DNA from: Heterodera schachtii
Taxonomy: Eukaryota; Nematoda; Chromadorea; Rhabditida; Heteroderidae
Length of the DNA stretch: 64,000 nt
NCBI GenBank assembly: GCA_023374025.1
Contig: SIJG01000012.1
Location: forward strand, 2,310,495 to 2,374,494
Direction: 5' to 3'
Shown: positions 1,357-64,000 of the stretch, one piece after another
Numbering within the stretch: position 1 is the stretch's first letter
How the letters are laid out: each line of letters starts with the position of its first letter
The notes under the pieces: model-generated
Database searches by the model: none
The model's input: only the letters and a program-made list of their open reading frames with translations
Told to the model about the DNA's origin: nothing
Translations under genes and position numbers: made by a program

Positions 1357-2073
1357 TCACAATAAATCACTCTTCTTCTTCTGCTGTTCTCTGAAGATTT
1401 CTTCTCCAAATTGTTTCTTCCAATTGAAAATGCTATTTTGGTGGATTTTCAATTTTTTAGAAATTTCTTTGTCACTCATTTTTGGATTTTCCCTTTTTAT
1501 TTCCCAATAAATTTTCATTTTTTCCATTTTTTCTTTCTCAGTTATTCTTTTACTGCTTATGCCAAATTGTTTCTTCCATTTGTTAATTGTTCCATATCCA
1601 ATTCCAATTTTCTTACAAATTTCGGCATAATTTTGTTTCCATTCTTTTAATGAATATTTTCTTTTTTGCTTAAATTCATGTATCATTCCAATGAATTTTT
1701 GCACAATTTCACGTTTTTGTGAATCAGTTTTTGATTTATAGTTTTTCTGTATTTGTTGGTTAAGCCCCAATTCTTTAATCCATTGATAAATTGTCGTTCG
1801 ATTTGTCCCCAATTTTTTTGCTATTTTTCTTTCAATTTTAACCCATTCTTTTGTTGAGAATTTTCTTACTTTTTGCTTTATTTTTTCTTTTATTTTATAA
1901 TATTTTTCAGTTATTTCTCTTTTTTTCTTCTCATTTCGTTTTTCTTTTTCTTTTTCTTGCCATTTTTCTCCAAATATTTCATCAAATGATTTTTGTTGCA
2001 ACTTTTTCTTTTCTGATCCAACATAATTAATGTTAATTAGGACGATCAAAATTAAAATTAGGCATAATTTCAT
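1357..2073 (-). CDS. Secreted triple helix-turn-helix protein (sHTH copy 1, intact)
   Basis: The protein has 238 residues in a single exon. Residues 1-20 form a hydrophobic signal peptide (MKLCLILILIVLININYVGS). A conserved LQQKSFDEIFGEKW block follows at 25-38, then a highly charged Lys/Glu stretch. Three tandem homeodomain-like HTH units lie at about 53-104, 120-171 and 180-223. Their probable recognition helices are KKLGTNRTTIYQWIKE (86-101), KKIGIGYGTINKWKKQFG (154-171) and KKLKIHQNSIFNWKKQFG (206-223). The start is fixed by the signal peptide and by an acceptor-like TTTTAG 18 nt upstream. Known: HTH units of this shape are common in DNA-binding proteins and in transposase N-termini. Inference: a secreted, lysine-rich DNA-binding-like protein, possibly an effector or extracellular nucleic-acid binder. 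No catalytic domain is present, so it is not a transposase. I do not recognise a named family. Confidence 0.75.
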   Translation of the reverse strand: MKLCLILILIVLININYVGSEKKKLQQKSFDEIFGEKWQEKEKEKRNEKKKREITEKYYKIKEKIKQKVRKFSTKEWVKIERKIAKKLGTNRTTIYQWIKELGLNQQIQKNYKSKTDSQKREIVQKFIGMIHEFKQKRKYSLKEWKQNYAEICKKIGIGYGTINKWKKQFGISSKRITEKEKMEKMKIYWEIKRENPKMSDKEISKKLKIHQNSIFNWKKQFGEEIFREQQKKKSDLL

Positions 2074-2102
2074 TTTAAAGATGAGATATTTCTAAAACAA
2101 AT
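2074..2102 (-). promoter_or_regulatory. Likely trans-splice acceptor and short 5' leader
   Basis: On the minus strand, ttgttttag ends at 2092, followed by an 18-nt leader and the ATG. The same arrangement precedes every sHTH copy that keeps its 5' end. Nematode acceptors are short pyrimidine-rich tracts ending in AG, and no upstream coding exon is visible, so SL addition is the simplest reading. Confidence 0.5.
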
Positions 2103-4202
2103 TTAATTTAAAACATTAAAAAATGAATTTATTATTTTAATTTGACAGCATTTTCATTGCAAATACATATATAATTTATATATTTTCTCAGAATAAAAAT
2201 TTTAAGAAGATTATAAATAAACAGGGATTCCATTTTTATTTAAATACATATTTTTTTCCTGGATTCTCCATAGCCTAATTAGTGGGAAAAACACTTTCTT
2301 TTTTGTGTTTGCGAACAAAAATCGGGACTTTTATTTACATATTTTTACATATTTCGGGGTTTTTTACATATACATATTTGGTGATTTTTGTACATATTTG
2401 ATATATATTTTAGCATTTTTTATACATATTTTATTTACATATTTCGCGATTTTTCTTAAATAAAAATGGAATCCCTGTAAATAAATGAAAAAGTAAAATG
2501 ATTCCACGATTAAATAAACATTTTTATCCCTACTGCTCAAAAAATATTTGTTTTTCCCTACTTTCATTGCAACTTTGATGTTCAGTAGAGTATAAATATA
2601 ATTAAAAACTTTAATTAGCGCTTAATAATTTTATTTTACTTACAAAAAAATTTAAAATTGGTAAATAATGATGAAATTATAATTAATTGGTATGATGCCC
2701 AGAAATGACATTTTAGCGCCCGAAGAATTGAGGACACGACATTTGAAGACAATTTCAAAAAAGCAAAATAAAACCGAAATTTTATTTTATATTATTATAA
2801 AAAGAAAAAGCCCTCCCCAAGCGCAAACTTCATGACAATTACATATAAATAAATATATTTAATATATTTTCTCACTAATTATACAATAAATTTTTAATAA
2901 GATTGTTAATTAAAAAATAAAATTATTTTTGCGATTTAATAAACATTTTTATTCTACTGATGAAAAAATATTTTTTTAATTCATTACTTTCATTGCAATT
3001 TTGATGACAAAAGTAGAGTAGAAATATAATTATTCAAAAATTAATTCTTATTTTACAAAGGCCTAACATTTATTTTTAAAATATTCATTTAATAAATCGC
3101 CAAGTAAAAGAAAATTTTTTTTTATTAAAAACCGGATAATTTCCTGATTATGCAAAAATCGTGCACTAAACCTTATATCATTTTCTTTTAAAAAAAGAAA
3201 TAATTAAAAAAATTAGTTAATTTTTGCATGATTTTTTCAATGCATTTTAATTTTTCTTTTTACTTATAAAATAAAGTAAGAAATAAACGAATTAATTGTT
3301 AATGAAATACCATAATATAAAATTATACGATTTTATTTATGAATGAAGTTTTTGGAGTAAAAATAAGACTACAGAAAAATTGAAAAACTCTCGCCTCTCG
3401 TCCTCTCGCCAACTCTCGTGTTTTTGGGGACTCTCGCCGAACTCTCGCTCTCGTCTTTTCTGAGACAAGTCACACCCTGGTAAGTAGTTATCTGGACAAA
3501 AATTCAAAATTAGAAAAGAATAGGAAAATATGGAAAAATATAAGCTATGGGTAAAAAAATATAGAATATAGATCACATACACAGACGAAAGATGGACAAA
3601 AACAAATATATATACAATCAAATATGGACCCAGATTTTGCCAAAATGTTAAGTAATTTTTTTCGAAATAATAATACATGCATTTAGTGAGGGATAATCTC
3701 AAAAATTCTTGATACAACTTACTGTGGGTAAGATCGTCAATGAATATACTAACACCGACAAGTTAGCTGAAAGATTAGAAAAAGAATAATGCTGGATATA
3801 ACAGTAGAAAAATTATATATTTTTTTTGATGGATCAAATTATGGGAAAAAAGATAAAAAATTAATGATCACATAAAAATCAGGGCTAGCATTTTTAGGTT
3901 TTAACATATTATATATTTTTGCGAATGTACTATCGCATCAAAAGACCAAGAAAGAATAACATATAAGTGTTTTCTTATTGAGAGTTTTTAGCAAATAAAA
4001 AAAATATATTTTTGACTTTTCGCTCGCAAAATAATATTAGAAGTTTTGGTAGAAATTTGTGAATGCTAAATAAGTTCATCCTTTTTTCAATATTACAAAT
4101 TTCGGTATAATTTTGTTTTCAAAATCTTTCCTGATCCAATACAATTAATATTTATTAGGACGATCAAAAACCAAATTAAAGCGAATATTAGGCAAAATTT
4201 TT
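2103..4202. repeat. Segmental duplication unit: sHTH 5' flank and beyond
   Basis: This matches 24030-25740 and 35800-37340 almost base for base, and its first half matches 18060-18870 and 40450-42600. It holds the conserved sHTH upstream region and repeated tacatattt phrases (2330-2450). A ctctcg-rich patch (3388-3460) recurs near 24930 and 36530. At 4080-4200 there is a degraded minus-strand sHTH remnant, readable only as signal-peptide and AEIC-like pieces. No intact gene is present. Confidence 0.75.
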
Positions 4203-5183: not shown

Positions 5184-5191
5184 AAATTTTT

Positions 5192-6524: not shown

Positions 6525-6740
6525 ATGCCAAACAAAAAGTTGAAACAAAAGTAATTTGAAGAAATATTTGGAGAAAAATGAAAACAAAAAGAAGAAAAAC
6601 AACGAAATGAGAAGAAAAAAAGAGAAATAATTGGAAAATTTTATAAAATAAAAGAAAAAATTAACAAAAAGGAAGAAAACATTCAGTTTAAGAATGGAAT
6701 AAACTTAATTCAAAAATAGCAAAAAAAACATAAAAATTGG
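6525..6740 (+). pseudogene. sHTH remnant, N-terminal part
   Basis: Degenerate plus-strand sequence still spells an LQQKSFDEIFGEKW-like block with stops inside (ttgaagaaatatttggagaa), then a Lys/Glu stretch and the beginning of the first HTH unit (aaaatagcaaaaaaaa). It has no start codon and several stops. Confidence 0.6.
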
Positions 6741-6822
6741 ATTTCATTAAAGCATTTTCATTTTCCACTTTATATTATTTCTATTTATTAAAAGAATAAT
6801 TTTTTAAATATAAAATTGAAAA

Positions 6823-7538
6823 ATGAATTTATTTATATTATTCTTTTTGAATATTATTTTATTTTTGATCATCGAATTTCATCAAATTAAAACGGAAAAT
6901 AAAAAATTGCAACAGAAATCATTTGACGAAATATTTGGAGAAAATTGGGAAGAAAAAGAAGAAACACAACGAAACGAAGAGAAGAAAACAGAAATAATCG
7001 AAAAATATTATAAAATAAAAGAGAAAATAAAGCAAAAAGGAAGAAAATATTCAGCAAAAGAATGGGATAAAATTAATTCGAAAATAGCGAAAAAATTAGG
7101 GACAAATCGCCAATTCATTTATAAATGGATTAAAGAATTTGGTCTTCAAAAACTAAAATCTTACAAATCAAAACTGATGATGAAAAATTAGAAATTATTC
7201 AAAAATTCATTGAAATGACAAATGAATTTAAACAAAAAAGAAAGTATTCGAAAAAAGAATGGCACCAAAATTATGCCGAAATTTGTAAGGAAATCGGAGT
7301 TAGCCAAGGTACAATTAACAAATGGAAAAAACAATTTGGCATTAGTTGTAAAAGAATGACGGAGGAACAAAAAATGGAGAAAATGAAAATGTATTGGCAA
7401 ATGAAAAAAGAAAATCCAAAAATGAGTGATCATAAAATTGCAAAAATATTGAAAATTCATCTAGATAGCATTTTAAGATGGAAGAAAAAATTTGGAGAAG
7501 AAATGTTTCAGAGAACAGCAGAAGAAGAAGAAGCATGA
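6823..7538 (+). pseudogene. sHTH copy with one frameshift
   Basis: The first segment (6823-7191) holds a signal peptide beginning MNLFILFFLNIILFLIIEFH, the conserved FDEIFGENW block and HTH unit 1 (KKLGTNRQFIYKWIKE). The next segment (to 7538) holds units 2 and 3 and the tail FQRTAEEEEA. They are joined by a single-base deletion in an A-run near 7172, where the other copies read KSKTDEEK. Apart from that base the whole gene is open. It is either a very young pseudogene or a sequencing error in a homopolymer. Confidence 0.7.
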
Positions 7539-8350: not shown

Positions 8351-8692
8351 TTATTAAATAATTATTTAGAAAATATATTAATTATATATATGTATTTGCC
8401 ATGATAAATATTCTGTCAAATTAAATAATAAATCATTTTTAAATTTTAAATTTATATGTTTTTAGGAAATATCTCTTATTTAAAATGAAATTATTTCAAT
8501 ATTTTCTTTAATTTTATTTTTTATTAAATAATTATTTAGAAAATATATTAATTATATATATATGTATTTGCCATGATAAATATTCTGTCAAATTAAATAA
8601 TAAATCATTTTTAAATTTTAAATTTATATTTTTAGGAAATATCTCTTCTTTAAAATGAAATTATTTCAAATATTTTCTTTAATTTTATTTTT
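8351..8692. repeat. About 170-bp tandem duplication of an sHTH promoter and start
   Basis: 8351-8520 is repeated at 8521-8692. The first unit has its own TTTTTAG acceptor and an ATG at about 8484 that begins a signal-peptide-like MKLFQ. A base is missing soon after and the copy runs into the second unit, so the upstream start is a decoy. Confidence 0.75.
8626..8654 (+). promoter_or_regulatory. Acceptor-like TTTTTAG and 19-nt leader
   Basis: The sequence atatttttag ends at 8635, 19 nt before the ATG at 8655, matching the position seen upstream of the other family members. Confidence 0.5.
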
Positions 8693-9347
8693 GAGCTTCT
8701 TAATAAAAGTTAAATATGTTGAACCAAACAAAGAAAAGCTGCAACAAAAAACATTTGAGGAAATATTTGGAGAAAAATGGGAAGAAAAAGAAGAAAAAGA
8801 ACGAAATGAATTCAAAAAAAGAGAAATAATTGAAAAATTTTATAAAATAAAAGAGAAAATAAAGGAAAAAGGGAGGAAATACTCAACAAAAGAATGGAAT
8901 AAAATTAAATCGAAAATAGCAAAAAAATTGGGGACAAATCGCCAATATATTTATGAATGGATCAAAGAATTAGGATTAAATAAACAAATACATAAATGTC
9001 ATAAATCAAAAACTGATGAAGAAAAACTCGCAATTGTCCAAAAATTCATTAAAATGACTAATGAATTTAAACAAAAAGGAAAATATTCAAGAAAAGAATG
9101 GCGCCAAAATTATGCCGAAATTTGCAAGAAAATTGGAGTAAGCCATGGAACAATGTGTAAATGGAAGAAACAATTTGGGTTTTGTAGTAAAATAACGGAG
9201 AAAGAAAAAATAGAAAAAATGAAAATTTATTGGCAAATAAAAAGAAAAAACCCAAAAATGAATGATAATGAAATTGCAAAAATTGTGAACACTTCTCATC
9301 AGAATATTTCCAATTGGAAGAAGCAATTTGGAGAAGAAATGTTTTAG
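8655..9347 (+). CDS. Secreted triple-HTH protein (intact, 230 aa)
   Basis: The signal peptide is MKLFQIFSLILFLSFLIKV, with likely cleavage near residue 20-25. It is followed by KLQQKTFEEIFGEKW. Three HTH units end with KKLGTNRQYIYEWIKELG, KKIGVSHGTMCKWKKQFG and NTSHQNISNWKKQFG. The tail is truncated to GEEMF by a TAG where other copies continue QRTAEEEE; the following bases still encode a recognisable tail in frame (TTAEEEW). Loss of eight acidic residues probably does not affect the fold. Its nearest relative in the window is the frameshifted copy at 59932-60640, which shares the same signal peptide. Confidence 0.75.
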   Translation: MKLFQIFSLILFLSFLIKVKYVEPNKEKLQQKTFEEIFGEKWEEKEEKERNEFKKREIIEKFYKIKEKIKEKGRKYSTKEWNKIKSKIAKKLGTNRQYIYEWIKELGLNKQIHKCHKSKTDEEKLAIVQKFIKMTNEFKQKGKYSRKEWRQNYAEICKKIGVSHGTMCKWKKQFGFCSKITEKEKIEKMKIYWQIKRKNPKMNDNEIAKIVNTSHQNISNWKKQFGEEMF

Positions 9348-12876: not shown

Positions 12877-13422
12877 TTAATCTTCCAAAATTTTTTCACC
12901 AAATTGTTTCTTCCAATTATTAATTATGAATTGGCTAACTCCGATTTTCTTACAAATTTTGGCATAATTTTGTTCCCATTCTTTTTTCGAATATTTTCCT
13001 TTTTGTTTATATTCATTTGTCATTTCAATAAATTTCTGCACAATTAAAATTTTTTGTTCCTCCGTTTTTGATTTATAGTTTTTATTTATTTTTTTATTTA
13101 ATCCCAATTCTTTAATCCATTCATAAATTTTGTTTCGATTTGTCCCCAATTTTTTTGCTATTTTTCTTTCAATTTTATCCCATTCTTTTGTTGAATATTT
13201 CTTTCCTTTCTCCTTTATTTTCTCTTTTATTTTATAATATTTTCCAATTATTTCTCTTTTTTTCTTCTCATTTCGTTGTTTTTCTTCTTTTTCTTCCCAT
13301 TTTTCTCCAAATATTTCATCAAATGATTTTTGTTGTAACATTTTCTTTTTTGGTTCAACATAATTAATATGAATTATGACGATCACAAATAAAAGAAAAG
13401 AAAAGATTAGGCATAATTTCAT
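12877..13422 (-). CDS. Secreted two-HTH protein (shortened sHTH, 181 aa)
   Basis: The signal peptide is MKLCLIFSFLLFVIVIIHIN and is followed by LQQKSFDEIFGEKW. HTH unit 1 ends KKLGTNRNKIYEWIKELG. Unit 2 (KKIGVSQFIINNWKKQFG) runs directly into GEKILED and a stop, so unit 3 is missing. Units 2 and 3 both end in WKKQFG, so the junction looks like unequal recombination or slippage between these repeated codons. The frame is fully open. The N-terminal half and upstream region closely match the broken copy at 45942-46549. Whether a two-unit protein is functional is unknown. Confidence 0.65.
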   Translation of the reverse strand: MKLCLIFSFLLFVIVIIHINYVEPKKKMLQQKSFDEIFGEKWEEKEEKQRNEKKKREIIGKYYKIKEKIKEKGKKYSTKEWDKIERKIAKKLGTNRNKIYEWIKELGLNKKINKNYKSKTEEQKILIVQKFIEMTNEYKQKGKYSKKEWEQNYAKICKKIGVSQFIINNWKKQFGEKILED

Positions 13423-17349: not shown

Positions 17350-18066
17350 TCACAATAAATCACTCTTCTTCTTCTGCTGTTCTCTGAAGATTTCTTCTCC
17401 AAATTGTTTCTTCCAATTGAAAATGCTATTTTGGTGGATTTTCAATTTTTTAGAAATTTCTTTGTCATTCATTTTTGGATTTTCCCTTTTTATTTCCAAA
17501 TAAATTTTCATTTTTTCCATTTTTTCTTTCTCAGTTATTCTTTTACTGCTTATGCCAAATTGTTTCTTCCATTTGTTAATTGTTCCATATCCAATTCCAA
17601 TTTTCTTACAAATTTCGGCATAATTTTGTTTCCATTCTTTTAATGAATATTTTCTTTTTTGCTTAAATTCATGTATCATTCCAATGAATTTTTGCACAAT
17701 TTCACGTTTTTGTGAATCAGTTTTTGATTTATAGTTTTTCTGTATTTGTTGGTTAAGCCCCAATTCTTTAATCCATTGATAAATTGTCGTTCGATTTGTC
17801 CCCAATTTTTTTGCTATTTTTCTTTCAATTTTAACCCATTCTTTTGTTGAGAATTTTCTTACTTTTTGCTTTATTTTTTCTTTTATTTTATAATATTTTT
17901 CAGTTATTTCTCTTTTTTTCTTCTCATTTCGTTTTTCTTTTTCTTTTTCTTGCCATTTTTCTCCAAATATTTCATCAAATGATTTTTGTTGCAACTTTTT
18001 CTTTTCTGATCCAACATAATTAATGTTAATTAGGACGATCACAATTAAAATTAGGCATAATTTCAT
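17350..18066 (-). CDS. Secreted triple-HTH protein (intact, twin of 1357-2073)
   Basis: This 238-residue protein differs from the 1357-2073 protein at only three residues: Leu9Val in the signal peptide, Trp190Leu at the start of unit 3, and Ser200Asn. The three underlying base changes are the only coding differences I found. The flanks are duplicated too, so this is a recent segmental duplication rather than a convergent copy. The Trp-to-Leu change falls at a position that is Trp in nearly all other copies (KIYWQIK). Confidence 0.75.
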   Translation of the reverse strand: MKLCLILIVIVLININYVGSEKKKLQQKSFDEIFGEKWQEKEKEKRNEKKKREITEKYYKIKEKIKQKVRKFSTKEWVKIERKIAKKLGTNRTTIYQWIKELGLNQQIQKNYKSKTDSQKREIVQKFIGMIHEFKQKRKYSLKEWKQNYAEICKKIGIGYGTINKWKKQFGISSKRITEKEKMEKMKIYLEIKRENPKMNDKEISKKLKIHQNSIFNWKKQFGEEIFREQQKKKSDLL

Positions 18067-20451: not shown

Positions 20452-21056
20452 ATGAAATTATGCTTATTATCCTCTTTAATTTTATTTTTGATCGTCCTAA
20501 TTAATTTTAATTATCTTGAACCAAAAAAAGAAAATGTTGCAACAGAAATCCTTTGATGAAATATTTGGAGAAAAATGGGAAAAAAAGAAGACGAAAATTT
20601 GGAAGAACAGAAAAGAAGAGAAATAATTCAAAAATATTATAAAATCAAAGAGAAAATAAAGCAAAAAGGAAGAAAATTTTCAACAAAAGAAAGGACTAAA
20701 AACAAAAAATTTAATTGTGCATAAATTTATTCAAATGACAGAAGAATATAAACAAAAAAGAAAATATTCAAAAATGAATGGCAAAATAATTATGCCGAAA
20801 TTTGTAAGAAAATTGGAGTTAGCAAAACTACAATTATAAAATGGAAGAAACAATTTGCAATTAGCAAGAAAAGAATTACTAAGAAAGAAAAAATGGAAAA
20901 GTGAAAATTTATTGGCAAATAAAAAGAGAAAATCCAAAAATGAGTGATAATGAAATTGCAAAAATTGTGAACACTTCAAATGCGAATATTTGTAATTGGA
21001 AGAAACAATTTGTAGAAGAAATGTTTTAGAGAAGAACAGAAGAAGAAGAAGAGTGA
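20452..21056 (+). pseudogene. sHTH pseudogene, multiply frameshifted
   Basis: It begins MKLCLLSSLILFLIVLIN after a TTTTTAG acceptor. A base insertion after ccaaaaaaagaaa breaks the frame before QQKSFDEIFGEKW. HTH unit 1 is cut by a deletion (jump from aaaggactaaa to aacaaaaaattt near 20700). Unit 2 (KKIGVSKTTIIKWKKQF) and unit 3 survive in different frames, with TGA for TGG and TAG for CAG codons. It is clearly inactive. Confidence 0.75.
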
Positions 21057-21298
21057 TTTGCTTGTGCTTTTTCAATTAACATATTATTTTGTGCTTTTTT
21101 CATTATTAATTATGCTAATTTATTTATTCATTTATTTCTGATTTGTCCCCAATTTTTGCATAAAGTATTTTAAGTTTAAAATATGTAATCAGTCTTAGTG
21201 TTTGTTTTTTTAAATTTTTGATAATTTAAAAAAATGAAAAAGAACATAAAAGAAAATTGGAAAAGAATATTAAGTATTATTATTATTATTAATAGATG
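21057..21298. other. sHTH 3' flank
   Basis: The usual post-stop phrase cattattaattatgctaattta is followed by A-rich sequence and attattattatt microsatellite. No gene is seen. Confidence 0.4.
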
Positions 21299-26280: not shown

Positions 26281-26665
26281 GTTTTAATTAAGAAAAATAT
26301 TATAAAATAAAAGAAAAAATAAAGCAAAAAGGAAAGAAATATTCATCAAAAGAATGGAATAAAATTGAAGGAAAATTAGAAAAAAAAAAAATAGGAACAA
26401 ATCGTCTGAAAATTTATGAATGATTAAAGAATTTGGTCTTCAAAAAAATAAAAACCATAAATCAAAAACTGATGAACAAAAGTTGAAAGTGTGCAAAAAT
26501 TCATTATGAATTTTTGTAAAATTTCTACTTTCACCATTAGTTTTTAATTTGTAATTTTTATATATTTGTTTATTTAATCGCAATTCTTTAATCAATATAA
26601 ATATATTGGCGATTTGTCGCCAATTTTTTCGCTATTTTTCTTAAATTTTCCCCCATTCTTTGAAG
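26281..26665. pseudogene. Composite of two opposed sHTH fragments
   Basis: 26281-26500 reads on the plus strand as the first HTH unit (KYSSKEWNKIEGKLEKK, then GTNRLKIYE and a stop). 26520-26665 reads on the minus strand as the corresponding piece of another copy (LNKQIYKNYKLKTNGE region, as at 50269-50470). The same chimera occurs at 37877-38255, so it predates that duplication. Confidence 0.65.
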
Positions 26666-26931: not shown

Positions 26932-27618
26932 CTAAGAGTGAATAGTTTCTTCTCCAAATTTGGCTTTCCATCTTTGAATGTTCTTTGCCGAAGTGTTTAT
27001 CATTTCAGCAATTTCCTTGTCACTCATTTTTGGATTTTCTTTTTTAATTTGCCAATAAATTTTCATTTTTTCCATTTTCTCATTCTCCGTTATAAATTTA
27101 CTCATTCCAAATTGTTTCTTCCATCTCTTAATTGTTGCAAGGCTAACTCCAATTTTCTTGCAAATTTCGATATAAATTTGGCGCCATTCTTTTCTTGAAT
27201 ATTTTCCTTTTTTCTTATATTCATTTGTCATTTTAATGAATTTTTGAACAATTTCGAACTTTTCTTCATCAGTTTTTGATTTGTGACATTTAATTTTTTG
27301 AAGACAAAATTCTTTAATCCATTCATAAATATATTGTCGATTTGTCCCCAATTTTTTTGCTAATTTTCTTTCAATTTTACTCCATTCTTTTGTTGAATAT
27401 TTTCTTCCTTTTTGCTTTATTTTTTCTTTTATTTTATAATATTTTTCGATTATTTCTGTTTTCTTCTCTTCGTTTCGTTGTGTTTCTTCTTTTTCTTCCC
27501 AATTTTCTCCAAATATTTCATCAAATGATTTTTCTTTCAATTTTTTCTTTTCTGTTCCGATTTGTTTAATTTGGATGATAAAAAATATAATTAAAACGAA
27601 TAATAGGTGAAGTTTCAT
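26932..27618 (-). CDS. Secreted triple-HTH protein (intact, 228 aa, divergent)
   Basis: The frame extends upstream to 27702, but the first 28 codons there lack a signal peptide and are not conserved. I start at 27618, where MKLHLLFVLIIFFIIQIKQI is a good signal peptide in the family context. KKLKEKSFDEIFGENW follows, then three HTH units with helices KKLGTNRQYIYEWIKEF, KKIGVSLATIKRWKKQFG and NTSAKNIQRWKAKFG. The tail is GEETIHS rather than QRTAEEEE. With 51681-52259 it forms a subgroup marked by the MKxHLL signal peptide and the IKQIGTEKKKL junction. Confidence 0.75.
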   Translation of the reverse strand: MKLHLLFVLIIFFIIQIKQIGTEKKKLKEKSFDEIFGENWEEKEETQRNEEKKTEIIEKYYKIKEKIKQKGRKYSTKEWSKIERKLAKKLGTNRQYIYEWIKEFCLQKIKCHKSKTDEEKFEIVQKFIKMTNEYKKKGKYSRKEWRQIYIEICKKIGVSLATIKRWKKQFGMSKFITENEKMEKMKIYWQIKKENPKMSDKEIAEMINTSAKNIQRWKAKFGEETIHS

Positions 27619-34474: not shown

Positions 34475-35178
34475 TCATTCTTCTGCTGTTCTCTGAAACA
34501 TTTCTTCTCCAAATTGTTTCTTCCAATAATGAATATTCTGTTTTGATATGTTCACAATTTTGGCAATTGCATTATCATTCATTTTTGGATTTTCACTTTT
34601 AATTTGCCAATAAATTTTCATTTTTTCGCTTTTTTCTTTCTCCGTTATTCTTTTAGTGCAAATGCCAAATTGTTTCTTCCATTTGTAAATTATGTCTCGG
34701 CTTACTCCAATTTTCTTACAAATTTTGGCATAATTTTGTTGCCATTCATCATGTGAATATTTCCTTTTTTGCTTATATTCATTTATCATTTCAATGTATT
34801 TTTGTACAATTTCTAATTTTTCTTCATCAGTTTTTGATTTGTAACTTCTATTATTTTTTGCTTATTCAAGCCCAATTCTTTAATCCATTTATAAATATAT
34901 TGGCGATTTGTCCCCAATTTTTTTGCTATTTTCACTTCAATTTTACTCCATTCTTTTCTTGGATATTTTCTTCCTTTTTGTTTGATTTTTTCTTTTATTT
35001 TAAGATATTTTCTGATTATTCCTCTTTTATTCTCTTCATTTCGTTGATTTTCTTCTTTTTCTTCCCATTTTTCTCCAAATATTTCATCGAATGTTTTCTG
35101 TTGCAATTTTTTATCCACTGATCCAACATAATTAATACTAATTAGGACGATCAAAATTAAAATTAGGCATAATTTCAT
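34475..35178 (-). pseudogene. sHTH copy with one frameshift
   Basis: Signal peptide MKLCLILILIVLISINYVGS, then KLQQKTFDEIFGEKW and HTH unit 1 (KKLGTNRQYIYKWIKELG) are open from 35178 to about 34840. A one-base loss around the LNKQKI codons shifts the frame. Units 2 (KKIGVSRDIIYKWKKQFG) and 3 (NISKQNIHYWKKQFG) and the tail EEMFQRTAEE are open in the next frame. It is the closest relative of the intact 39200-39901 gene, so it may be a recent loss. Confidence 0.7.
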
Positions 35179-37876: not shown

Positions 37877-38255
37877 TAATTAAGAAAAATATTATAAAAT
37901 AAAAGAAAAAATAAAGCAAAAAGGAAAGAAATATTCATCAAAAGAATGGAATAAAATTGAAGGAAAATTAGAAAAAAAAAAAATAGGAACAAATCGTCTG
38001 AAAATTTATGAATGATTAAAGAATTTGGTCTTCAAAAAAATAAAAACCATAAATCAAAAACTGATGAACAAAAGTTGAAAGTGTGCAAAAATTCATTATG
38101 AATTTTTGTAAAATTTCTACTTTCACCATTAGTTTTTAATTTGTAATTTTTATATATTTGTTTATTTAATCGCAATTCTTTAATCAATATAAATATATTG
38201 GCGATTTGTCGCCAATTTTTTCGCTATTTTTCTTAAATTTTCCCCCATTCTTTGA
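37877..38255. pseudogene. Composite of two opposed sHTH fragments, second copy
   Basis: Same chimera as 26281-26665, with the same stops and the same junction. Confidence 0.65.
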
Positions 38256-39199: not shown

Positions 39200-39901
39200 T
39201 CATTCTTCTGCTGTTCTCTGAAACATTTCTTCTCCAAATTGTTTCTTCCAATAATGAATATTCTGTTTTGAAGTGTTCACAATTTTAGCAATTTCCGTGT
39301 CATTCATTTTTGGATTTTCACTTTTAATTTGCCAATAAATTTTCATTTTTTCGCTTTTTTCTTTCTCCGTTATTCTTTTAGTGCAAATGCCAAATTGTTT
39401 CTTCCATTTTGTAATTGTAGTTTTGCTAACTCCAATTTTCTTACAAATTTCGTCATAATTTTTTTGCCATTCTTTTAATGAATATTTCCTTTTTTGCTTA
39501 TATTCATTTATCATTTCAATGTATTTTTGCACAATTTCAATTTTTTCTTCATCACTTTTTGATTTATAGCGATTATTTATTTTTTGATTAAGCCCAAATT
39601 CTTTGATCCATTTATAAATTTTCTTTTGATTTGTCCCCAATTTTTTCGCTATTTTTATTTCAATTTTATTCCATTCTTTTGCTGAAAATTTTCTTCCTTT
39701 TTGCTTTATTTTCTCTTTGATTTTATAGAATTTGCCAATTATTTCTCTTCTTTTCTGTTCTTCATGAATTTGTTCTTCTTTTTCTTCCCATTTTTCTCCA
39801 AATATTTCATCGAATGTTTTCTGTTGCAATTTTTTATCAACTGATCCAACGTAATTGATATTAATTAGGACGATCAAAATTAAAATTAGGCATAATTTCA
39901 T
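39200..39901 (-). CDS. Secreted triple-HTH protein (intact, 233 aa)
   Basis: The signal peptide is MKLCLILILIVLININYVGS, followed by VDKKLQQKTFDEIFGEKW. The recognition-helix signatures are KKLGTNQKKIYKWIKEFG, KKIGVSKTTITKWKKQFG and NTSKQNIHYWKKQFG, and the tail is GEEMFQRTAEE. It differs from the 34475 copy mainly in and around the presumed recognition helices of units 1 and 2, while unit 3 is the same. The acceptor-like TTTTAG is at the usual place upstream of 39901. Confidence 0.75.
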   Translation of the reverse strand: MKLCLILILIVLININYVGSVDKKLQQKTFDEIFGEKWEEKEEQIHEEQKRREIIGKFYKIKEKIKQKGRKFSAKEWNKIEIKIAKKLGTNQKKIYKWIKEFGLNQKINNRYKSKSDEEKIEIVQKYIEMINEYKQKRKYSLKEWQKNYDEICKKIGVSKTTITKWKKQFGICTKRITEKEKSEKMKIYWQIKSENPKMNDTEIAKIVNTSKQNIHYWKKQFGEEMFQRTAEE

Positions 39902-42475: not shown

Positions 42476-42670
42476 AAATAAAGTAAGAAATAAACGAATT
42501 AATTGTTAATAAATCTTTGAATAAATTAATTTTTTTAAAATTTTTTATTATGAAATAGTGCCAAGTGCCAAATTACTGTTTATTAACTTGATCAATAATA
42601 GAAAAAAAAAATTTTTTTTATGCAAATATATATTAAATAAACATGGTTTATATTTGAATTGTGATTTCTT

Positions 42671-42883
42671 ATAAGAAACAATTTGCAATTAGCAAGAAAA
42701 GAATTACTAAGAAAGAAAAAATGGAAAAGTGAAAATTTATTGGCAAATAAAAAGAGAAAATCCAAAAATGAATGATAATGAAATTACAAAAATTGTGAAC
42801 ACTTCAAGTGCGAATATTTGTAATTGGAAGAAACAATTTGTAGAAGAAATGTTTTAGAGAAGAACAGAAGAAGAAGAAGAGTG
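42671..42883 (+). pseudogene. sHTH 3' fragment (units 2/3 boundary to tail)
   Basis: It matches 20841-21056 closely, including the same TGA and TAG defects, and starts abruptly after an upstream region, so the first two thirds are deleted. It reads KKQFAISKKRITKKEKMEK, stop, then KIYWQIKRENPKMND and NTSSANICNWKKQF. Confidence 0.7.
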
Positions 42884-45941: not shown

Positions 45942-46549
45942 TCATTCTTCTTTTTCGGCTGTTCTCTGAAACATTTGTTCAACAAATTGTTTCTTCCATT
46001 TTGAAATGCTCCTTAGATGAATTTTCAATATTTTTGCAATTTCCTTATCACTCATTTTTGGATTTTCACGTTTTATTCTCCAATATTCTTTCATTTTTTC
46101 CATTTTTTTCTTTCTCCGTTAATCAGAATGTCAAATTGTTTCTTCCATTTGTTAATTGTTACATAGCCAACTCCAATTTTCTTACAAATTTCGGCATAAT
46201 TTTTATTCCATTCTTTTGGCGAATATTTTCTTCCTTTTTGTTTAAATTCATTTGTCATTTCAATGAATTTTCGAACAATTTCAATTTTTTGTTCATCAGT
46301 TTTTGATTTATGACATTTATTTATTTTTTGATTAAGCCCCAATTCTTTAATTCATTCATAAATTTTGATTCGATTTGTCCCCAATTTTTTCGCTATTTTT
46401 CGAATTAATTTTAGTTTTTCTTCCCGTTTTTCTCCAAATATTTCATCAAATGATTTTTGTTGTAACATTTTCTTTTTTGGTTCAACATAATTAATATAAA
46501 TTATGACGATCACAAATAAAAGAAAAGAAAAGATTAGGCATAATTTCAT
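45942..46549 (-). pseudogene. sHTH pseudogene with deletion, nonsense and frameshift
   Basis: The signal peptide MKLCLIFSFLLFVIVIIYIN and QQKSFDEIFGEK are followed by a deletion that removes the start of unit 1, rejoining at KLIRKIAKKLGTNRIKIYE. The next codon is TGA where Trp is expected. The same frame then continues LGLNQKINKCHKSKTDEQK through unit 2 (KKIGVGYVTINKWKKQF). A frameshift near 46105 puts unit 3 (KILKIHLRSISKWKKQF) and the tail FQRTAEKEE in another frame. Confidence 0.75.
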
Positions 46550-49626: not shown

Positions 49627-50249
49627 ATGAAATTATGCCTAATTTTAATTTTGGTCACCCTAATGAATATTGAAGAAAAAGAACGAAATGAACAGAAAAA
49701 AAGAGAAATAATTGTAAAATTTTATAAATTAAAAGAAAAAATAAAAGGAAAAGGATGGAAACATTCAGAGAAAGAACGGAATAAAATTGAAATAAAAATA
49801 GCAAAAAATTGGGGACAAATCGCAAAAATATTTTTAAATGGATTAAAGAATTTGGTCTTCAAAAAGGCAAATCTTACAAATTAGCAACTGATAAAGAAAA
49901 AATTGAAATTTTACAAAAATCCATTGAAATGAAAAATGAATATAAGCAAAATGGAATAAAATATTCGACAAAAGAATGGGACCAAAATTATACCGAAATT
50001 GGCAACACAATTGGTGTTGGCTATGGAACAATTAAGAAATGGAAGAAACAATTTGCATTTGCTAGTAAAATAACGGAGAAAGAAAAATAAAAGAAAATGA
50101 ACATTTATTGGAAAAGAAAAAAAGAAAACCCAAAAATGAGTGACAAAGAAATTGCTAAAATGACGAAAATTAACAAATATAGTCTCATAAAATGGAAGAA
50201 ACAATTTGGAGAAGAAATCCATCAGAGAATAGCAGAAGAAGAAGAGTGA
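49627..50249 (+). pseudogene. sHTH pseudogene, deletion plus two frameshifts
   Basis: The start MKLCLILILVTLMNI runs straight into EEKERNEQKKREI, so the QQKSFDEIFGEKW block is deleted. A lost base near 49808 shifts the frame inside unit 1 (GTNRKNIFKWIKEFG is in the next frame). Unit 2 reads TIGVGYGTIKKWKKQF, then TAA after KITEKEK. Unit 3 (KINKYSLIKWKKQFG) and the tail EEIHQRIAEEEE lie beyond. Confidence 0.7.
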
Positions 50250-50268: not shown

Positions 50269-50712
50269 TTAAATATTAGAATGTTTTCTGTTTTCCTTAT
50301 ATTCTTTTGTCATTCTAATGAATTTTTGTAAAATTTCTATTTTTTCTCCATTAGTTTTTAATTTGTAATTTTTATATATTTGTTTATTTAATCGCAATTC
50401 TTTAATCCATTCATAAATATATTGGCGATTTGTCGCCAATTTTTTCACTATTTTTCTTAAATTTTCCCCCATTCTTTTGAGTTATTTTTATTCCATTTTT
50501 ATTTGAGTATTTCTTTCTTTTTTCTTTAATTTTATAGAATTTTCCAATTATTTGTCTTTTCCTTCCAAATTTTCGTCTTCTTTTTCTTCCCATTTTTCTC
50601 CAAATATTTCATCAAATGTTTTTTGCTAGAGTTTTTTTTCTTCTCCGTTTTGGTTTGATTAATTATGGCAATTAAAATTAAAATTGAACAAAATAATAAT
50701 AAAAATTTTTTT
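50269..50712 (-). pseudogene. sHTH pseudogene, first half, frameshifted
   Basis: It converges tail to tail with the previous copy. A degenerate signal peptide without ATG is followed by FDEIFGEKW-like codons (50590-50610), broken Lys/Glu sequence, then KKLATNRQYIYEWIKELRLN and KEYKENRKHS. Units 2 and 3 are absent. It supplied, or shares origin with, the minus-strand half of the chimeras at 26.5 and 38.1 kb. Confidence 0.6.
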
Positions 50713-51680: not shown

Positions 51681-52259
51681 TCATTTTGGATTTTCACTTT
51701 TTATTTGCAAATAAATTTTCATTTTTTCTTTTTCGGTTATTCTTTTCTTGCTAATTCCAAATTGTTTCTTCCAATTATCAATTGTTCCATAACCAACTCC
51801 AATTTTCTTGCAAATTTCGGCATAATTTTGGCGCCATTCTTTTCTTGAATATTTTCCTTTTTTCTTATATTCATTTGTCATTTTAATGAATTTTTGAACA
51901 ATTTCGAACTTTTCTTCATCACTTTTTGATTTGTAAGATTTGATCCTTTGAAGACCAAATTCTTTAATCCACTGGTAAATATATTTGCGATTTGTCCCCA
52001 ATTTTTTTGCTATTTTTATTTCAATTTTACTCCTTTCTTTTGCTGAGTATTTTCTTTCTTTTTCCTTTATTTTTTCTTTTATTTTATAATATTTTCCAAT
52101 TATTTCTCTTTTTTCTTCCAATTTTTCTTCTTTTTCTTCCCATTTTTCTCCAAATATTTCGCCAAATGACTTTTGTTCCAATTTTTTCTTTTCTGTTCCG
52201 ATTTGATTAATTTGTGTGATAAAAAATATAATAAAAACTAATAATAGGTGGGGTTTCAT
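51681..52259 (-). CDS. sHTH protein truncated in unit 3 (192 aa)
   Basis: The signal peptide is MKPHLLLVFIIFFITQINQI, then KKLEQKSFGEIFGEKW. Unit 1 has KKLGTNRKYIYQWIKEFG and unit 2 has KKIGVGYGTIDNWKKQFG. Translation ends LQIKSENPK and stops, because one A is missing from the usual ccaaaaatgagtgac. Only about 30 bases of unit 3 follow. It is probably a pseudogene, but could yield a two-HTH secreted protein. It belongs to the MKxHLL subgroup with 26932-27618. Confidence 0.55.
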   Translation of the reverse strand: MKPHLLLVFIIFFITQINQIGTEKKKLEQKSFGEIFGEKWEEKEEKLEEKREIIGKYYKIKEKIKEKERKYSAKERSKIEIKIAKKLGTNRKYIYQWIKEFGLQRIKSYKSKSDEEKFEIVQKFIKMTNEYKKKGKYSRKEWRQNYAEICKKIGVGYGTIDNWKKQFGISKKRITEKEKMKIYLQIKSENPK

Positions 52260-55329: not shown

Positions 55330-55867
55330 TTCTTCTCCAATTTTGTTCTTCCATTTTTGAATTGCTCGTTAAATTGTTTCTTCCATTTTTCAATTGTTGT
55401 TTGACTTACTCCAATTTTCTTACAAATTTCGGCATAATTTTGGTTCCATTCTTTTTTCAATATTTTTTTTGTTTATATTTATTTGTCATTTCAATGAATT
55501 TTTGAACAATTTCAATTTTTTCTTCATCAGTTTTTGATTTGTAGCTTTTATTTGGTCTTTGATTTAGCTTCAATTCTTTAATCCATTCATAAATATAATT
55601 TCGATTTGTTCCCAATTTTTTGGCTATTTTCGAATTAATTTTATCCCATTCTTTTGTTGAATATTTTCTTCCTTTTTGCTTTATTTTTTCTTTTATTTTA
55701 TAATATTTTTCAATTATTTCTCTTGTTTTCTTCTCATTTCGTTGTTTTTCTTCCCATTTTTCTCCAAATATTTCATCAAATGATTTCTGTTGCAATTTTT
55801 TAGTCACTGATCCAGCATAATTAATATTAATTAGGACGATCAAAATTAAAATTAGATATATTTTCAT
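55330..55867 (-). pseudogene. sHTH pseudogene, frameshifted, unit 2 spliced to unit 3 end
   Basis: The signal peptide MKIYLILILIVLININYAGS and KLQQKSFDEIFGEKW are intact. Unit 1 has KKLGTNRNYIYEWIKEL. A base loss after KYKQKK near 55457 ends the frame. Unit 2 (KKIGVSQTTIEKWKKQF) follows in another frame, then directly a piece of unit 3's end (KWKNKIGEEI) in yet another. It is a deletion between the repeated WKKQF codons plus small indels. Confidence 0.7.
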
Positions 55868-57803: not shown

Positions 57804-58476
57804 TAAAGCATTAAAATGAATTTTTTATTTTAATTTGACAGCATATTATTCATAGCAATACATATATACATACATATATATATATATATATAATGTGAAT
57901 AAATTTTCTCACTAATTATTTAATAAATAATTTTAAATAAATTATTGAAATAAAAAATAAGGTAATTTCATTCACGATTAAATAAACATTTTTATCCCTA
58001 CTGATCAAAAAATATTTATTTAAAATAATAAAAATGAATAATAGTAATAATTTAAATTGGCATTTATTTTTTTCGATAATATAATTTTAACATTAATATG
58101 TTTTTTTATACATAACAAAAATCACAACTCTACTGATTTCTTAGAAATAACAAATACCTATTTAATCGGAAATAATAAATATTTGAGATTTTATTAAATG
58201 TTATTATACTGAACAAATAATGGCAAGAAAAATAAAATAATGAATAGATTTAAATATAATTTCCTTCCTAAATAACAAAATATGCAAAATCATAATTTAT
58301 ATGGACATTCCAATAGGGAAGAGCCTCTCCTTTCCAATAACCATCCAATCCGCAGCCGAGACCCGAATCCCGGCTTGGCTTACACCTCCACCTCAGGGCT
58401 GTCAGGAAGCGTCCCCGGTTCCCAATTTGTTTTTTTTAATAAAAAATTATAAATAAATAATAAAATTTTGAAAAAA
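57804..58476. other. Upstream-like sequence, TA microsatellite, GC island
   Basis: A tatata run lies at 57860-57890. A GC-rich island at 58315-58425 (ccgagacccgaatcccggc) has no assignable function. No gene is seen. Confidence 0.4.
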
Positions 58477-58791
58477 AATTTAAACAAAAAGGAAAATATT
58501 CGCCAAAAGAATGGCAGCAAAATTATGCCGAAATTTGCAAGAAAATTGGAGTAAGCCATTTCATAATTAACAAATGGAAGAAACAATTAAGCATTAGCAA
58601 GAAAAAGATAACGGAGAAAGAAAAATGGAAAAAATAAAAAATATTGGGGAAATAAAAAAAAGAAAATCCAAAAATGAGTGATCCGAAAATTGCAAAAACA
58701 TTGAAAATTCATCAAAATAGCATTTTAAGATGGAAGAAAAAATTTGGAGTGTAGAAATGTTTCAGAGAATAGCAGAAGAAGAAGAAGCATG
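58477..58791 (+). pseudogene. sHTH fragment, units 2 and 3, with stops
   Basis: It starts abruptly at FKQKGKYSPKEWQQNYAEIC, then KKIGVSHFIINKWKKQ. A base loss near 58626 and TAA and TAG codons interrupt unit 3 (KTLKIHQNSILRWKKKFG). The tail FQRIAEEEEA matches the 6823-7538 copy, and the 3' flanks are duplicated too. Confidence 0.65.
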
Positions 58792-59931
58792 ATTTGCTTG
58801 GGATTTTCAAATTAAAATATTATTTTTCTGCTTTTTTATTATTAATTAAGCTAATTATATTTTAATGAATTTAATTATGATTTGTCCCCAATTTTTTGCA
58901 TAAATAAGTTCAATTGAAAATATGAAATCAGTTTTCAGTGTATTTAGTTTCAGGACTAATACCGAAAATGTCTTGTTTTATTTTATATGAAAATTATTTA
59001 AAAATAAGTTTTTGTTTGTGAAAAAGCAAGAGATCCAATAAATTCATTTAGAAATTCTACATTTTTCCCCAGTCGGAGCTGACAAAAATCTTTAAACTTT
59101 CTTTTGAAAAAATTTACGACTTTTTTATGTACAATATTTTTTTTCCTATACTTTTTTTTAGCTGTGGAGCTAATTTTCAAAGTTTTCCAAAATTTATATA
59201 TCTATTAACTTTTTGAAGATAGAAAATTATATAAAGTATTAAATTCTCTAGATTTTCTCTATTTTTAGAGTTTTTTGCATTAGAATTGATCCACATTGAA
59301 GTAAGTTATGAATTTTCAAACACTTACGTAAATTTCCGAGGCTTAAAAAATCAATTTTTTTTTAATAATGTATTTTTACTCTTTTTTATGAACCTAATGC
59401 AAAAAAAATTTGGAATTATTTTTGGGAATTTTTTTTTTGCGGGGCTTTAATTCAGAGAACACAGAAGAAGATGAACAAGAGTGGTTGCTTATGCTTTTAA
59501 GAGAAATGTGTAACATTTTTTGCACATTTGCATAATCAGGAAATTTTCCGGTTTTTTCTAAAAAAAGTTTCCTTTTTTACTTCGCGATTGTTATTTGAAA
59601 ATTTTTAAAATAAATGTTAGGCATTTGTAAAATAAGAATGAATTTTTGAATAATTATATTTCTACTCTACTTTTGCATCAAAATTGCAATGAAAGTAGGG
59701 AATAAAGAAAATGATCAGTAGAATAAAAATGTTTATTTAATCGTAGAAATAATTTTATTTTTTATTTTACAATCTTATTAAAAATATTTATTAAATAATT
59801 ATTTAGAAAATATATTAATTATATATATATATATATATGTATTTGCCATGATAAAAATTCTGTCAAATTAAATAATAAATCATTTAAATGTTTTAAATTT
59901 ATTTGTTTTTAGGAAATATCTCTTCTTTAAA
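58792..59931. repeat. Duplicated 3' flank, then an sHTH upstream region
   Basis: 58792-59450 matches 7540-8200. At 59455-59480 a scrap of sHTH tail (agagaacacagaagaagatg) marks the breakpoint. 59500-59931 is the conserved upstream region with ttttacttcgcga, tctactctacttttg and a TTTTTAG acceptor at 59912-59918. Confidence 0.65.
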
Positions 59932-60640
59932 ATGAAATTATTTCAAATATTTTCTTTAATTTTATTTTTGAGCTTCTTAATAAAAGTTAAATATGTTGAA
60001 CCAAACAAAGAAAAGCTGCAACAAAAAACATTTGAGGAAATATTTGGAGAAAAATTGGAAGAAAAAGAAGAAGAAAAATTGGAAGAAAAAAGAGAAATAA
60101 TTGGAAAATTCAACAAAATAAAAGAAAAAATAAAGGGAAAAGGAAGAAAATACTCAAAAAAAGAATGGAACAAAATTGAACAGAAAATAGTTAAAAAATT
60201 GGGGACAAATCGGAAAATATATTTATGAATGGATCAAAGAATTGAGGCTTAATCAAAAAATACAAAAAAGCTACAAATCAAAAACTGATGAACAAAAATT
60301 AGAAATTGTGCAAAAATGCATTGAAATGACAAATGAATATAAACAAAAAGGAAAATATTCGAAAAAAGAATGGAACCAAAATTATGCCGAAATCTGTAAG
60401 AAAATTGGAGTTAACCAATTCACAATTAACAAATGGAAAAAACAATTTAGCATTAGTCGTAAAAGAATAACGGAAGAAGAAAAAATGGAAAAAAAGAAAA
60501 TTTATTGGCAAATAAAAAGTGAAAATCCAAAAATGAATGATAATGCAATTGCAAAAATTGTGAACACTTCAAATGCGAATATTTCCAATTGGAAGAAACA
60601 ATATGGGGAAGAATTGTTTGAGAGAACAGCAGAAGATTAA
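59932..60640 (+). pseudogene. sHTH copy with a single 1-base insertion
   Basis: The signal peptide is identical to that of 8655-9347 (MKLFQIFSLILFLSFLIKVK). KLQQKTFEEIFGEKLEEKEE leads to unit 1. In KKLGTNRK an extra A (cggaaaatat for cggaaatat) shifts the frame near 60212. After that, unit 1's end, unit 2 (KKIGVNQFTINKWKKQF), unit 3 (NTSNANISNWKKQYG) and the tail FERTAED are open to 60640. With one base removed it would be a full member, so this needs read-level verification. Confidence 0.7.
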
Positions 60641-62668: not shown

Positions 62669-62701
62669 TCTTCGAGTGCGGTGGACCAAATAATTATTAC
62701 G

Positions 62702-63025
62702 GTTCTCTAAAACATTTCTTCTCCAAATTGTTTCTTCCAATTGGAAATAAAAAAATTTATGAAACACTTTTAAATTTTTTGAGATAAAATCATTTGTTTT
62801 TTTTAAAACATTTTTAAAATAGATAAAAATTCACTGAATGACTATAAATTTTGAAAAATCCATGTGTGTGAATGCCAAATTAGTTCATCCATTTTTCAAT
62901 AACTGAACGACTAACTCCAATTTTCTTACCAACTTCGGCATTTGAAGAAATTGAAAAAAATATGGAAATTTATAATTTGCATAATTAATAAAGAAAAAAA
63001 GCAACAAAAATAATATTTAAAACAA
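62702..63025 (-). pseudogene. Scraps of sHTH copies
   Basis: 62702-62750 encodes a tail piece (WKKQFGEEMF) and 62875-62945 a unit 2 piece (AEVGKKIGVSRSVIEKW). Both are on the minus strand, and the segment from 62820 on matches 45760-45941. Confidence 0.55.
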
Positions 63026-63252
63026 TTCATTCTTCTTTTTCGGCTGTTCTCTGAAACATTTGTTCTCCAAATTGTTTCTTCCATTTTGAAATGCTCCTTA
63101 GATGAATTTTCAATTTTTTGGAAATTTCTTTGTCACTCATTTTTGGATTTTCACTTTTTATTTTCCAATAAATTTTCATTTTATTTTCTTTCTCGGTTAT
63201 TTTACAGGTAATGTAAAATTGTTTCTTCCATATTTCATTTGTTCTATGGTTA
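63026..63252 (-). pseudogene. sHTH copy interrupted by the assembly gap
   Basis: The minus strand ends in EQMFQRTAEKEE and contains unit 3 (KKLKIHLRSISKWKKQFG) and the end of unit 2 (WKKQF). Frame slips are present near 63185-63215. The rest of the gene lies in, or beyond, the run of Ns. Unit 3 is the same type as in 45942-46549. Confidence 0.6.
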
Positions 63253-63582
63253 NNNNNNNNNNNNNNNNNNNNNNNNNNNNNNNNNNNNNNNNNNNNNNNN
63301 NNNNNNNNNNNNNNNNNNNNNNNNNNNNNNNNNNNNNNNNNNNNNNNNNNNNNNNNNNNNNNNNNNNNNNNNNNNNNNNNNNNNNNNNNNNNNNNNNNNN
63401 NNNNNNNNNNNNNNNNNNNNNNNNNNNNNNNNNNNNNNNNNNNNNNNNNNNNNNNNNNNNNNNNNNNNNNNNNNNNNNNNNNNNNNNNNNNNNNNNNNNN
63501 NNNNNNNNNNNNNNNNNNNNNNNNNNNNNNNNNNNNNNNNNNNNNNNNNNNNNNNNNNNNNNNNNNNNNNNNNNNNNNNNNN
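63253..63582. other. Assembly gap (330 Ns)
   Basis: A run of N. Sequence after it (63583 on) does not continue the gene before it, so the true missing length may not be 330. Confidence 0.98.
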
Positions 63583-63894
63583 ACCTTGTTGATAATTTAA
63601 TTAAAATAAAAAATGTAAAAAATTTAAAATAATTTTGATTTCATTATTAAGGACAATAATTTTATTAGAGTCCAATATTTTGAAAAATTTTTCGTTCAAG
63701 TATTTGGGCCAAGACCAGGATAGAATTCGGGAGAGTGTTAATTACATAATTTTATATTGGTGGTCTACATAGAACAGAAATGATAGAAAAAAGGAAAATA
63801 TATTAGAAAATAAGTCCAAAAAATTTCGTTGAAAATGAATAGACAAATTAAAATTCACAAATAAAAAATTTTATTTAGATGTCGATTTAAAATT
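63583..63894. other. Spacer after the gap, no gene seen
   Basis: A+T-rich sequence with no recognised repeat. Confidence 0.35.
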
Positions 63895-64000
63895 CTTGTT
63901 TATAGATTTTTGCAATTTTCTTATCACTCATTTTAGGATTTTCTCTTGATTTTATTCCAATAAACTTTCATTTTCTCAATTTTTTCATTCTTCGTTAATG
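63895..64000 (-). pseudogene. Start of another sHTH unit 3, cut by the window edge
   Basis: The minus strand reads through TNEEKIEKMKVYWNKIKREN-like codons and PKMSDKKIAKIY. A base insertion near 63955 shifts the frame. The beginning of the gene would be beyond 64000. Confidence 0.55.

Follow-up and report, generated by a model that had tools for sequence, protein, structure and literature searches.

A clustered family of probably secreted three-unit helix-turn-helix proteins in the cyst nematode Heterodera schachtii

A 64,000-nt stretch of the Heterodera schachtii genome (GenBank assembly GCA_023374025.1, contig SIJG01000012.1, positions 2,310,495 to 2,374,494 of the forward strand; hereafter "the window") carries many copies of one gene, whose intact product combines, in this order, a hydrophobic, signal-peptide-like N-terminus, a short FDEIFGEKW motif, and three helix-turn-helix (HTH) units. 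We tentatively interpret these copies as members of a cyst-nematode family of lysine-rich, secreted proteins of a DNA-binding type, a sizeable part of which is used by adult males, an interpretation to which we give somewhat less than an even chance.

Architecture of the encoded proteins

When the window was searched by tblastn with seven of its own open reading frames (ORFs), 23 separate family places were found, and a profile run over the stop-free segments of the window gave 31 places, 12.2 kb in total; an earlier note, made from the DNA letters alone, had claimed at least twenty copies or fragments, and both counts bear it out. As that note also stated, five ORFs (228–238 aa) are open across all three HTH units. 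Judged by ORF and Pfam matches, they lie at 1357..2073 (minus strand, 238 aa, with the N-terminal hydrophobic stretch, the FDEIFGEKW motif, and three HTH units), 8655..9347 (plus strand, 230 aa), 17350..18066 (minus strand, 238 aa), 26932..27618 (minus strand, 228 aa), and 39200..39901 (minus strand, 233 aa). The last of these, which was also modelled with AlphaFold2, serves as the reference for residue numbering. Its signal-peptide-like N-terminus, assigned by a hydropathy rule, occupies residues 1–20 (39842..39901), and the motif region, which is common to subfamily B (see below) and Globodera, residues 27–40 (39782..39823); AlphaFold2 places HTH unit 1 at residues 58–102 (39596..39730, recognition helix 92–101), unit 2 at residues 117–170 (39392..39553, recognition helix 160–169), and unit 3 at residues 179–222 (39236..39367, recognition helix 212–221), all on the minus strand.

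For the statistics, subfamily A was taken as the 32 of 62 family ORFs of at least 90 aa that had a profile score above 270 bits and a length of at least 195 aa; the other 30, which were shorter, lower-scoring, or members of subfamily B, stand outside the A statistics. By a simple hydropathy rule, a hydrophobic N-terminus was present in all 32 A copies and in 9 of 10 B copies, as the strong signal peptide of the earlier note had predicted, and a (−3, −1) cleavage-like site followed in 30 of the 32 and 9 of the 10, respectively. Up to residue 195 of the A copies, hydropathy revealed no second hydrophobic stretch. Residues 26–195 contain 26% Lys, with an isoelectric point of 9.9 and 1.6 Cys on average, which agrees with the Lys-rich body described before. 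The protein would leave the cell that produces it.

The three tandem HTH units were confirmed in two ways. The Pfam models HTH_23 (PF13384), HTH_28 (PF13518), and HTH_Tnp_1 (PF01527) scored above their curated cut-offs in all five intact copies and matched 13, 14, and 12 of 17 members, respectively, at E ≤0.001. Furthermore, AlphaFold2 predicted three 3-helix HTH modules in the reference copy, with a mean predicted local distance difference test score (pLDDT) of 74 in the first model; with 30 sequences, the mean pLDDT was 82 and the predicted template modelling score 0.38, a value at which the relative placement of the units is not fixed by the model. In fold searches, the HTH matches were weak, and only unit 3 was well tested. 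A TNFAIP8-like match in a sequence search of the PDB (E 0.007, over a helical stretch) was judged to be due to chance, and no meaningful PDB relative was found. The FDEIFG motif is acidic and aromatic, and we speculate that it is of an activation or docking type, in which case it would dock a partner shared by the copies.

The earlier description of the gene as intronless holds for subfamily A, which is continuous between HTH units 2 and 3, and probably fails for subfamily B, in which a break with GTAAAT-like donors and T-rich AG acceptors occurs there and is likely an intron. The third B unit was found downstream by a strict pattern in 3 of 10 copies, in two of these within the same open frame. 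The recognition helix of unit 1 is conserved in subfamily B and is of the R-x-K-I-Y-K-W type. Upstream of the ATG, 22 of the 32 A copies have a T-rich AG acceptor-like site no more than ~45 nt away, which would fit trans-splicing or an intron in the 5′ untranslated region.

Selection and variation of the recognition helices

The reading frames are intact and under purifying selection: the median pairwise ratio of nonsynonymous to synonymous substitution (dN/dS) was 0.38 (495 of 496 pairs had dS above 0.1), falling to 0.16 in the FDEIFG motif region and to 0.19 at core recognition-helix positions 4 and 7. Recognition positions 1, 2, 5, and 6, which were defined from what is generally known of HTH domains and from where the helices begin in the first structural model but chosen after column variability had been viewed, had a dN/dS of 1.10 (bootstrap 0.91–1.33) versus 0.37 elsewhere, and the observed proportion of nonsynonymous differences (pN) at these positions was matched in none of 20,000 column permutations. 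The same contrast was seen in 16 disjoint nearest pairs (1.14 versus 0.37 in the rest, p = 1.7e−5). With all pairs pooled, the recognition value fell to 0.75 when position 9 was added, and units 1, 2, and 3 gave 0.69, 1.19, and 1.68, an order that differed in the 16 nearest pairs (2.10, 0.91, and 0.96), and in subfamily B the recognition value was 0.51 versus 0.46 elsewhere (unit 1, 0.26; unit 2, 0.85).

The variation of recognition helices on a constant scaffold, as noted earlier, therefore stands in subfamily A and, as described below, in Globodera, although the pooled variation peaks in units 2 and 3 and the examples first given came from unit 1. The comparison of dN/dS inside and outside the recognition helices, proposed in that note, gave the higher value at the recognition positions, with the sensitivity to position 9 given above. 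Other polar helix columns had a dN/dS of 0.51 (helix 1, 0.34; helix 2, 0.83), and in the 16 nearest pairs the recognition positions showed no significant excess over such columns (0.54, p = 0.20). Because the recognition dN/dS is near 1, diversification is likely and positive selection is not proven; we read the change on the putative DNA-facing surface as relaxed or diversifying. On our preferred interpretation, the copies would bind DNA with differing preference.

These polar columns bear on an alternative that we consider unlikely, namely that the HTH folds have lost DNA binding and now serve as a helical framework in secreted, cationic proteins of seminal, antimicrobial, or structural function, with the variable surface binding other proteins. 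Helix-2 columns 74, 78, 82, 142, 146, and 150 vary about as much as the recognition positions, which, together with the helix-2 value above, shows that helix 3 is not the only variable part; in sister-pair counts, recognition positions could not be told apart from matched polar columns, and DNA-binding proteins are not usually secreted. What speaks against a mere scaffold is the constancy, complete or nearly so, of the Trp/Ile at the core of each recognition helix and of several Lys residues after it. Moreover, 115 of 121 relatives (120 Globodera proteins and one metagenomic) yielded 197 units, in which 8 of the 19 positions were unconstrained by the search pattern. Among these eight, entropy was highest at recognition positions 2 (3.33 bits) and 1 (3.01 bits), followed by position 6 (2.41), a position in helix 2 (2.29), and position 5 (1.89).

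Probably a gene family and not a transposon

Matches to transposase models raise the possibility that the copies are transposase pieces or a mobile element, which the earlier note had named as grounds for refuting it. We consider this highly improbable. HTH_Tnp_1 scores above its cut-off, many relatives are named "Transposase" in UniRef, and the copies at 17350..18066 and 1357..2073, 99% identical across 981 nt, share just this part, with sharp ends. However, no catalytic domain appeared among the Pfam and NCBIfam matches, which are made by sequence profiles and cover the HTH region, in line with what the earlier note had stated, and NCBIfam transposase models remained far below their cut-offs (best 29.1 of 224 and 28.2 of 100 bits, four proteins). 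Fixed transposable-element ends were searched for in the seven closest pairs and were not found: in these pairs (at least 88% identity), the distance from the ORF to the end of the shared segment ranges from 112 to 909 nt on the upstream side and from 134 to 608 nt on the downstream side, the downstream values being rough because some ORFs are shortened. The frames are under purifying selection with a conserved N-terminus, and the copies group by contig (9 changes versus a shuffled mean of 13.5, none of 200 shuffles as low; 20 of 32 rows, seven contigs), a result driven by near-copies. Given the dN/dS of 0.38, the lack of a catalytic domain and of fixed ends, and transport by segmental duplication, the copies behave as a gene family and not as a transposon. 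The 981-nt pair looks like the product of conversion or a short dispersed copy.

The HTH domains are also matched by Pfam models of other names: Transposase, Terminase_5 (PF06056), and Phage_terminase (PF10668) models matched 12, 6, and 3 of 17 members, respectively, at E 0.001, and Terminase_5 exceeded its own cut-off in two of the five intact copies. The two terminase models are linked to a viral packaging Gene Ontology term. Terms for transposition and viral DNA packaging are reported, in passages of PMC9582021, to be enriched in H. schachtii segmental duplications; since these models match the HTH domains, this enrichment may be partly an annotation artefact.

Copy number and spread in the genome

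The genome searched comprised 178.49 Mb in 356 contigs. The back-translated pattern F.EIFG[EQ].W matched 980 times (482 + 498), and WKK[EQ]FG 535 + 580 times, with no matches in either reversed control; the recurrence of the motif is therefore not due to chance. One window copy used as a query gave 3,739 first-look candidates. Internal stops were absent from 99 of 150 listed rows among the best 150 of these candidates scored (151 matches reported), a share biased towards intact copies because the scored places are the best-scoring ones. Subfamily B gave 3,212 first-look candidates, mostly on other contigs, in a set that overlaps the 3,739 in part. Overall, family copies number roughly a thousand or more, clustered and with many broken, so that the clustered, expanded family first proposed from the window is evident across the genome.

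Within the window, direct duplications occur at offsets near 11.6, 33.1, and 21.9 kb, and their pieces, 93–100% identical, bring family fragments with them. Recent segmental duplications pair 24.5–26.3 with 36.1–37.9 kb, 2.4–4.1 with 35.6–37.3 kb, and 20.8–21.9 with 42.7–43.8 kb. Upstream flank homology fades within ~250 bp, with any match in 198 of 992 ordered pairs, and downstream flanks matched in 68 of 930, in a test that is weak at these copy divergences. Duplication, both segmental and local, together with sequence exchange, may thus have carried the family to a thousand or more places.

Relatives in cyst nematodes and probable identity of the family

A single-sequence protein search matched two Globodera proteins alone. 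A profile of 17 sequences found 341 proteins, of which the best 120 were all from Globodera (117 from G. rostochiensis), with E values down to 9e−59 for the G. rostochiensis relatives. Among these 120 proteins, 104 had a hydrophobic N-terminus, 88 the strict motif, and 78 both, and the order of signal-peptide-like N-terminus, F.EIFG..W, and HTH units is common to the window family and Globodera. A subfamily-B profile found 12 proteins: ten from Globodera, one from Heterodera trifolii (84% identity across 16% of the query), and one on a short metagenome contig. The protein search proposed earlier thus located homologues in Globodera and H. trifolii, and since the combination of N-terminus, motif, and HTH units is present in both genera, it looks older than the Heterodera/Globodera split. 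In some Globodera proteins, GQIEPNSTDQNPPLTESDHS-type tandem repeats, varying in number, separate the motif from the HTH units.

The earlier statement that no named family matches these proteins did not survive this search, given that relatives fill the G. rostochiensis proteome, many of them labelled "Transposase". The family is, moreover, probably the one described as resembling ADI82807.1. According to passages of PMC9582021, 3,094 H. schachtii genes resemble ADI82807.1, 2,235 of them in segmental duplications, and such genes make up 860 of 2,881 male-specific genes; the authors state that "DNA transposition may be implicated", with details unclear. For G. pallida, parts of PMC4054857 report 474 such genes, some expressed highly and exclusively in males, with the digestive system stained in situ for some members and glands for none of those tested, and one figure legend places such genes in J2; a part of PMC4213498 gives 295 members, 180 of them clustered. 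An H. avenae relative was named after dorsal-gland expression (PMC4054857), and the namesake reaches a higher level in FF than in J2 (PMC4011697, in part). The identification rests on agreement in size, species, and clustering, and on the fact that the H. schachtii passages name no second family of such size.

HTH domains have gone without mention in these sources. No HTH, homeodomain, transposase, or DNA-binding term occurs in PMC4901422, PMC4213498, PMC4054857, PMC8359618, and PMC6367775; PMC9582021 mentions neither helix-turn-helix, transposase, nor DNA-binding; PMC10946958 mentions neither helix, homeobox, nor transposase, and DNA-binding once, in a reference title; and the passages drawn on from PMC6555003, PMC4011697, and PMC11228951 do not mention HTH. 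The titles and abstract openings found, mostly in open-access literature, name no secreted HTH family in nematodes. The family has probably already been counted in print, and both how its proteins are built and what they do have become open to testing.

Possible roles

If the family is ADI82807.1-like, a sizeable share of its copies would be specific to adult males, and an important site of action would be the secretory or reproductive system of the male, or material transferred by males, and not the feeding site alone. Just 28% of ADI82807.1-like genes are male-specific, which lowers our confidence in this interpretation. As passages of PMC9582021 report, secreted genes in general are not more duplicated, which counts against the identification.

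The earlier note had suggested an effector delivered into another organism's nucleus or a gland product. That the copies are effectors entering the plant nucleus, like HsvG/HsvB or GLAND4, and diversified by host or target promoter, now seems doubtful to us. The signal-peptide-like N-terminus and the basic, Cys-poor HTH body agree with such a role, as do the variation of the recognition helices, the confinement of listed relatives to cyst nematodes save one short metagenome contig, plant parasitism with 27 pectate-lyase stretches in the genome, and the dorsal-gland name of the H. avenae relative; HsvG/HsvB and GLAND4 provide precedents (parts of PMC12886408 and PMC6804341). The upstream regions point the other way. 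The dorsal-gland DOG box is ATGCCA. It occurred 4 times in the 500 bp upstream of 31 copies versus a shuffled mean of 4.8 (downstream, 12), and neither it nor Mel-DOG was enriched upstream. The neighbouring hexamer TGCCAT was enriched there (11 versus a shuffled mean of 4.9, a count reached in 3 of 200 shuffles), and most of these occurrences come from a stretch around −80 to −90 that is conserved among related copies. Of two marks of gland effectors, then, a secretion signal is present by the hydropathy rule (32/32 A, 9/10 B) and DOG-box enrichment is absent (n = 31), although not every effector family carries the DOG box, according to a part of PMC10946958. The main text of a gland effectorome study (PMC11309470) mentions no HTH, DNA-binding, or transposase, and, if the family is ADI82807.1-like, 860 of 3,094 genes are male-specific, and the G. 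pallida members tested in situ gave signal in the digestive system for some and in glands for none. The architecture proposed earlier stands, whereas the reported male expression, the in situ signal outside glands, and the lack of DOG-box enrichment lean against a gland role and weaken the plant-nucleus idea.

Male expression also allows a more radical proposal, that the copies are male germline conflict genes, whose DNA-binding products, secreted or transferred, would give one parental genome an advantage and so account for races in copy number. The 860 of 3,094 genes reported as male-specific, if this is the same family, and the clusters with many dead copies accord with it, but we regard it as very improbable.

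If the identity holds, 3,094 genes would amount to roughly one tenth of all H. schachtii genes (calculated from 18,575 genes being 69%, in a passage of PMC9582021) and 30% of its male-specific genes. The HTH identity makes a nameless family testable, as one that is probably secreted, of a DNA-binding type, and with defined variable residues, and may offer a plain answer to the unclear link of the ADI82807.1-like family with DNA transposition.

Other family copies and neighbouring features of the window

Besides the intact copies, shortened copies lie on the minus strand at 12877..13422 (181 aa, units 1–2) and 51681..52259 (192 aa, ending within unit 3), both by ORF and tblastn, and a shortened or broken copy at 55353..55867 (minus strand; 136 aa ORF at 55457–55867; ORF and profile). 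Broken copies found by profile are located at 34475..35178 (minus strand, two open pieces, ORF 34813–35178), 6585..7538 (plus strand, several open pieces, ORF 6823–7191), and 59932..60640 (plus strand, two open pieces). Tblastn and profile together identified decayed copies at 20452..21063 (plus), 45951..46549 (minus), 49627..50243 (plus), and 50275..50706 (minus), 3′ fragments at 58470..58799 (plus), 62886..63251 (minus, adjoining an N run), and 42661..42854 (plus), and an internal fragment at 26292..26500 (plus), with a second copy at 37884–38092. Additional small fragments appeared in the profile run.

At 32628–34308 (plus strand), two adjacent ORFs in different frames match Pfam DUF1759 and DUF1758 (retropepsin-like), which we take to be the gag/protease part of a BEL/Pao-type retrotransposon. 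A 168 aa ORF at 4289–4795 (plus strand) presumably is a piece of an ISXO2-like DDE transposase, which it resembles by motif; Pfam gave no supporting match for this identity. A 329 aa ORF rich in Asn/Gln/Pro lies at 10457–11446 (minus strand) and has no Pfam match. Rfam had no match in the window.

Comparison with known systems

Among the closest counterparts are G. rostochiensis proteins such as A0A914H824 and A0A914H822, which are homologous to the window family and share the signal-peptide-like N-terminus, FDEIFGEGW, and HTH units. Globodera relatives differ in having acidic Gln/Asn-rich stretches, in some proteins repeated, that separate the motif from the HTH region, a varying number of units, and often longer chains. 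The ADI82807.1-like family, as described in the passages cited above, belongs to the same lineage, is exceptional in size, clustered, and mostly in segmental duplications, and is divergent, its consensus having no C. elegans homolog; HTH domains, the motif, and recognition-helix variation are not part of that description, and the likeness is one of size, clustering, and species.

The transposases of IS3, IS630, and mariner carry the same small HTH_Tnp_1/HTH_23 domain by profile. In contrast to IS3, IS630, IS481, and mariner transposases, the window family has three HTH units and a signal-peptide-like N-terminus, and no DDE or other catalytic domain was found. HsvG and HsvB of Pantoea agglomerans are likewise exported, contain several HTH motifs, and are reported to be nuclear in the host (parts of PMC12886408 and PMC6804341); however, they are bacterial, type III secreted, and two single genes, so that the likeness is one of architecture alone. 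GLAND4 (Gr-1106), likened here by description, is a secreted cyst-nematode protein reported, via citing papers, to bind DNA, but has just 9, 10, and 15 paralogues in three species (a part of PMC10946958). The boldest version of our interpretation, an arsenal of about a thousand DNA-binding proteins that are secreted, carry recognition helices diversified from one copy to the next, and are exported, to a large extent by males (or else into the plant), so as to bind DNA belonging to a different cell or organism, is rather unlikely in our estimation; if true, it would be an animal counterpart, on the scale of a gene family, of the diversification of transcription activator-like (TAL) effectors or zinc-finger arrays.

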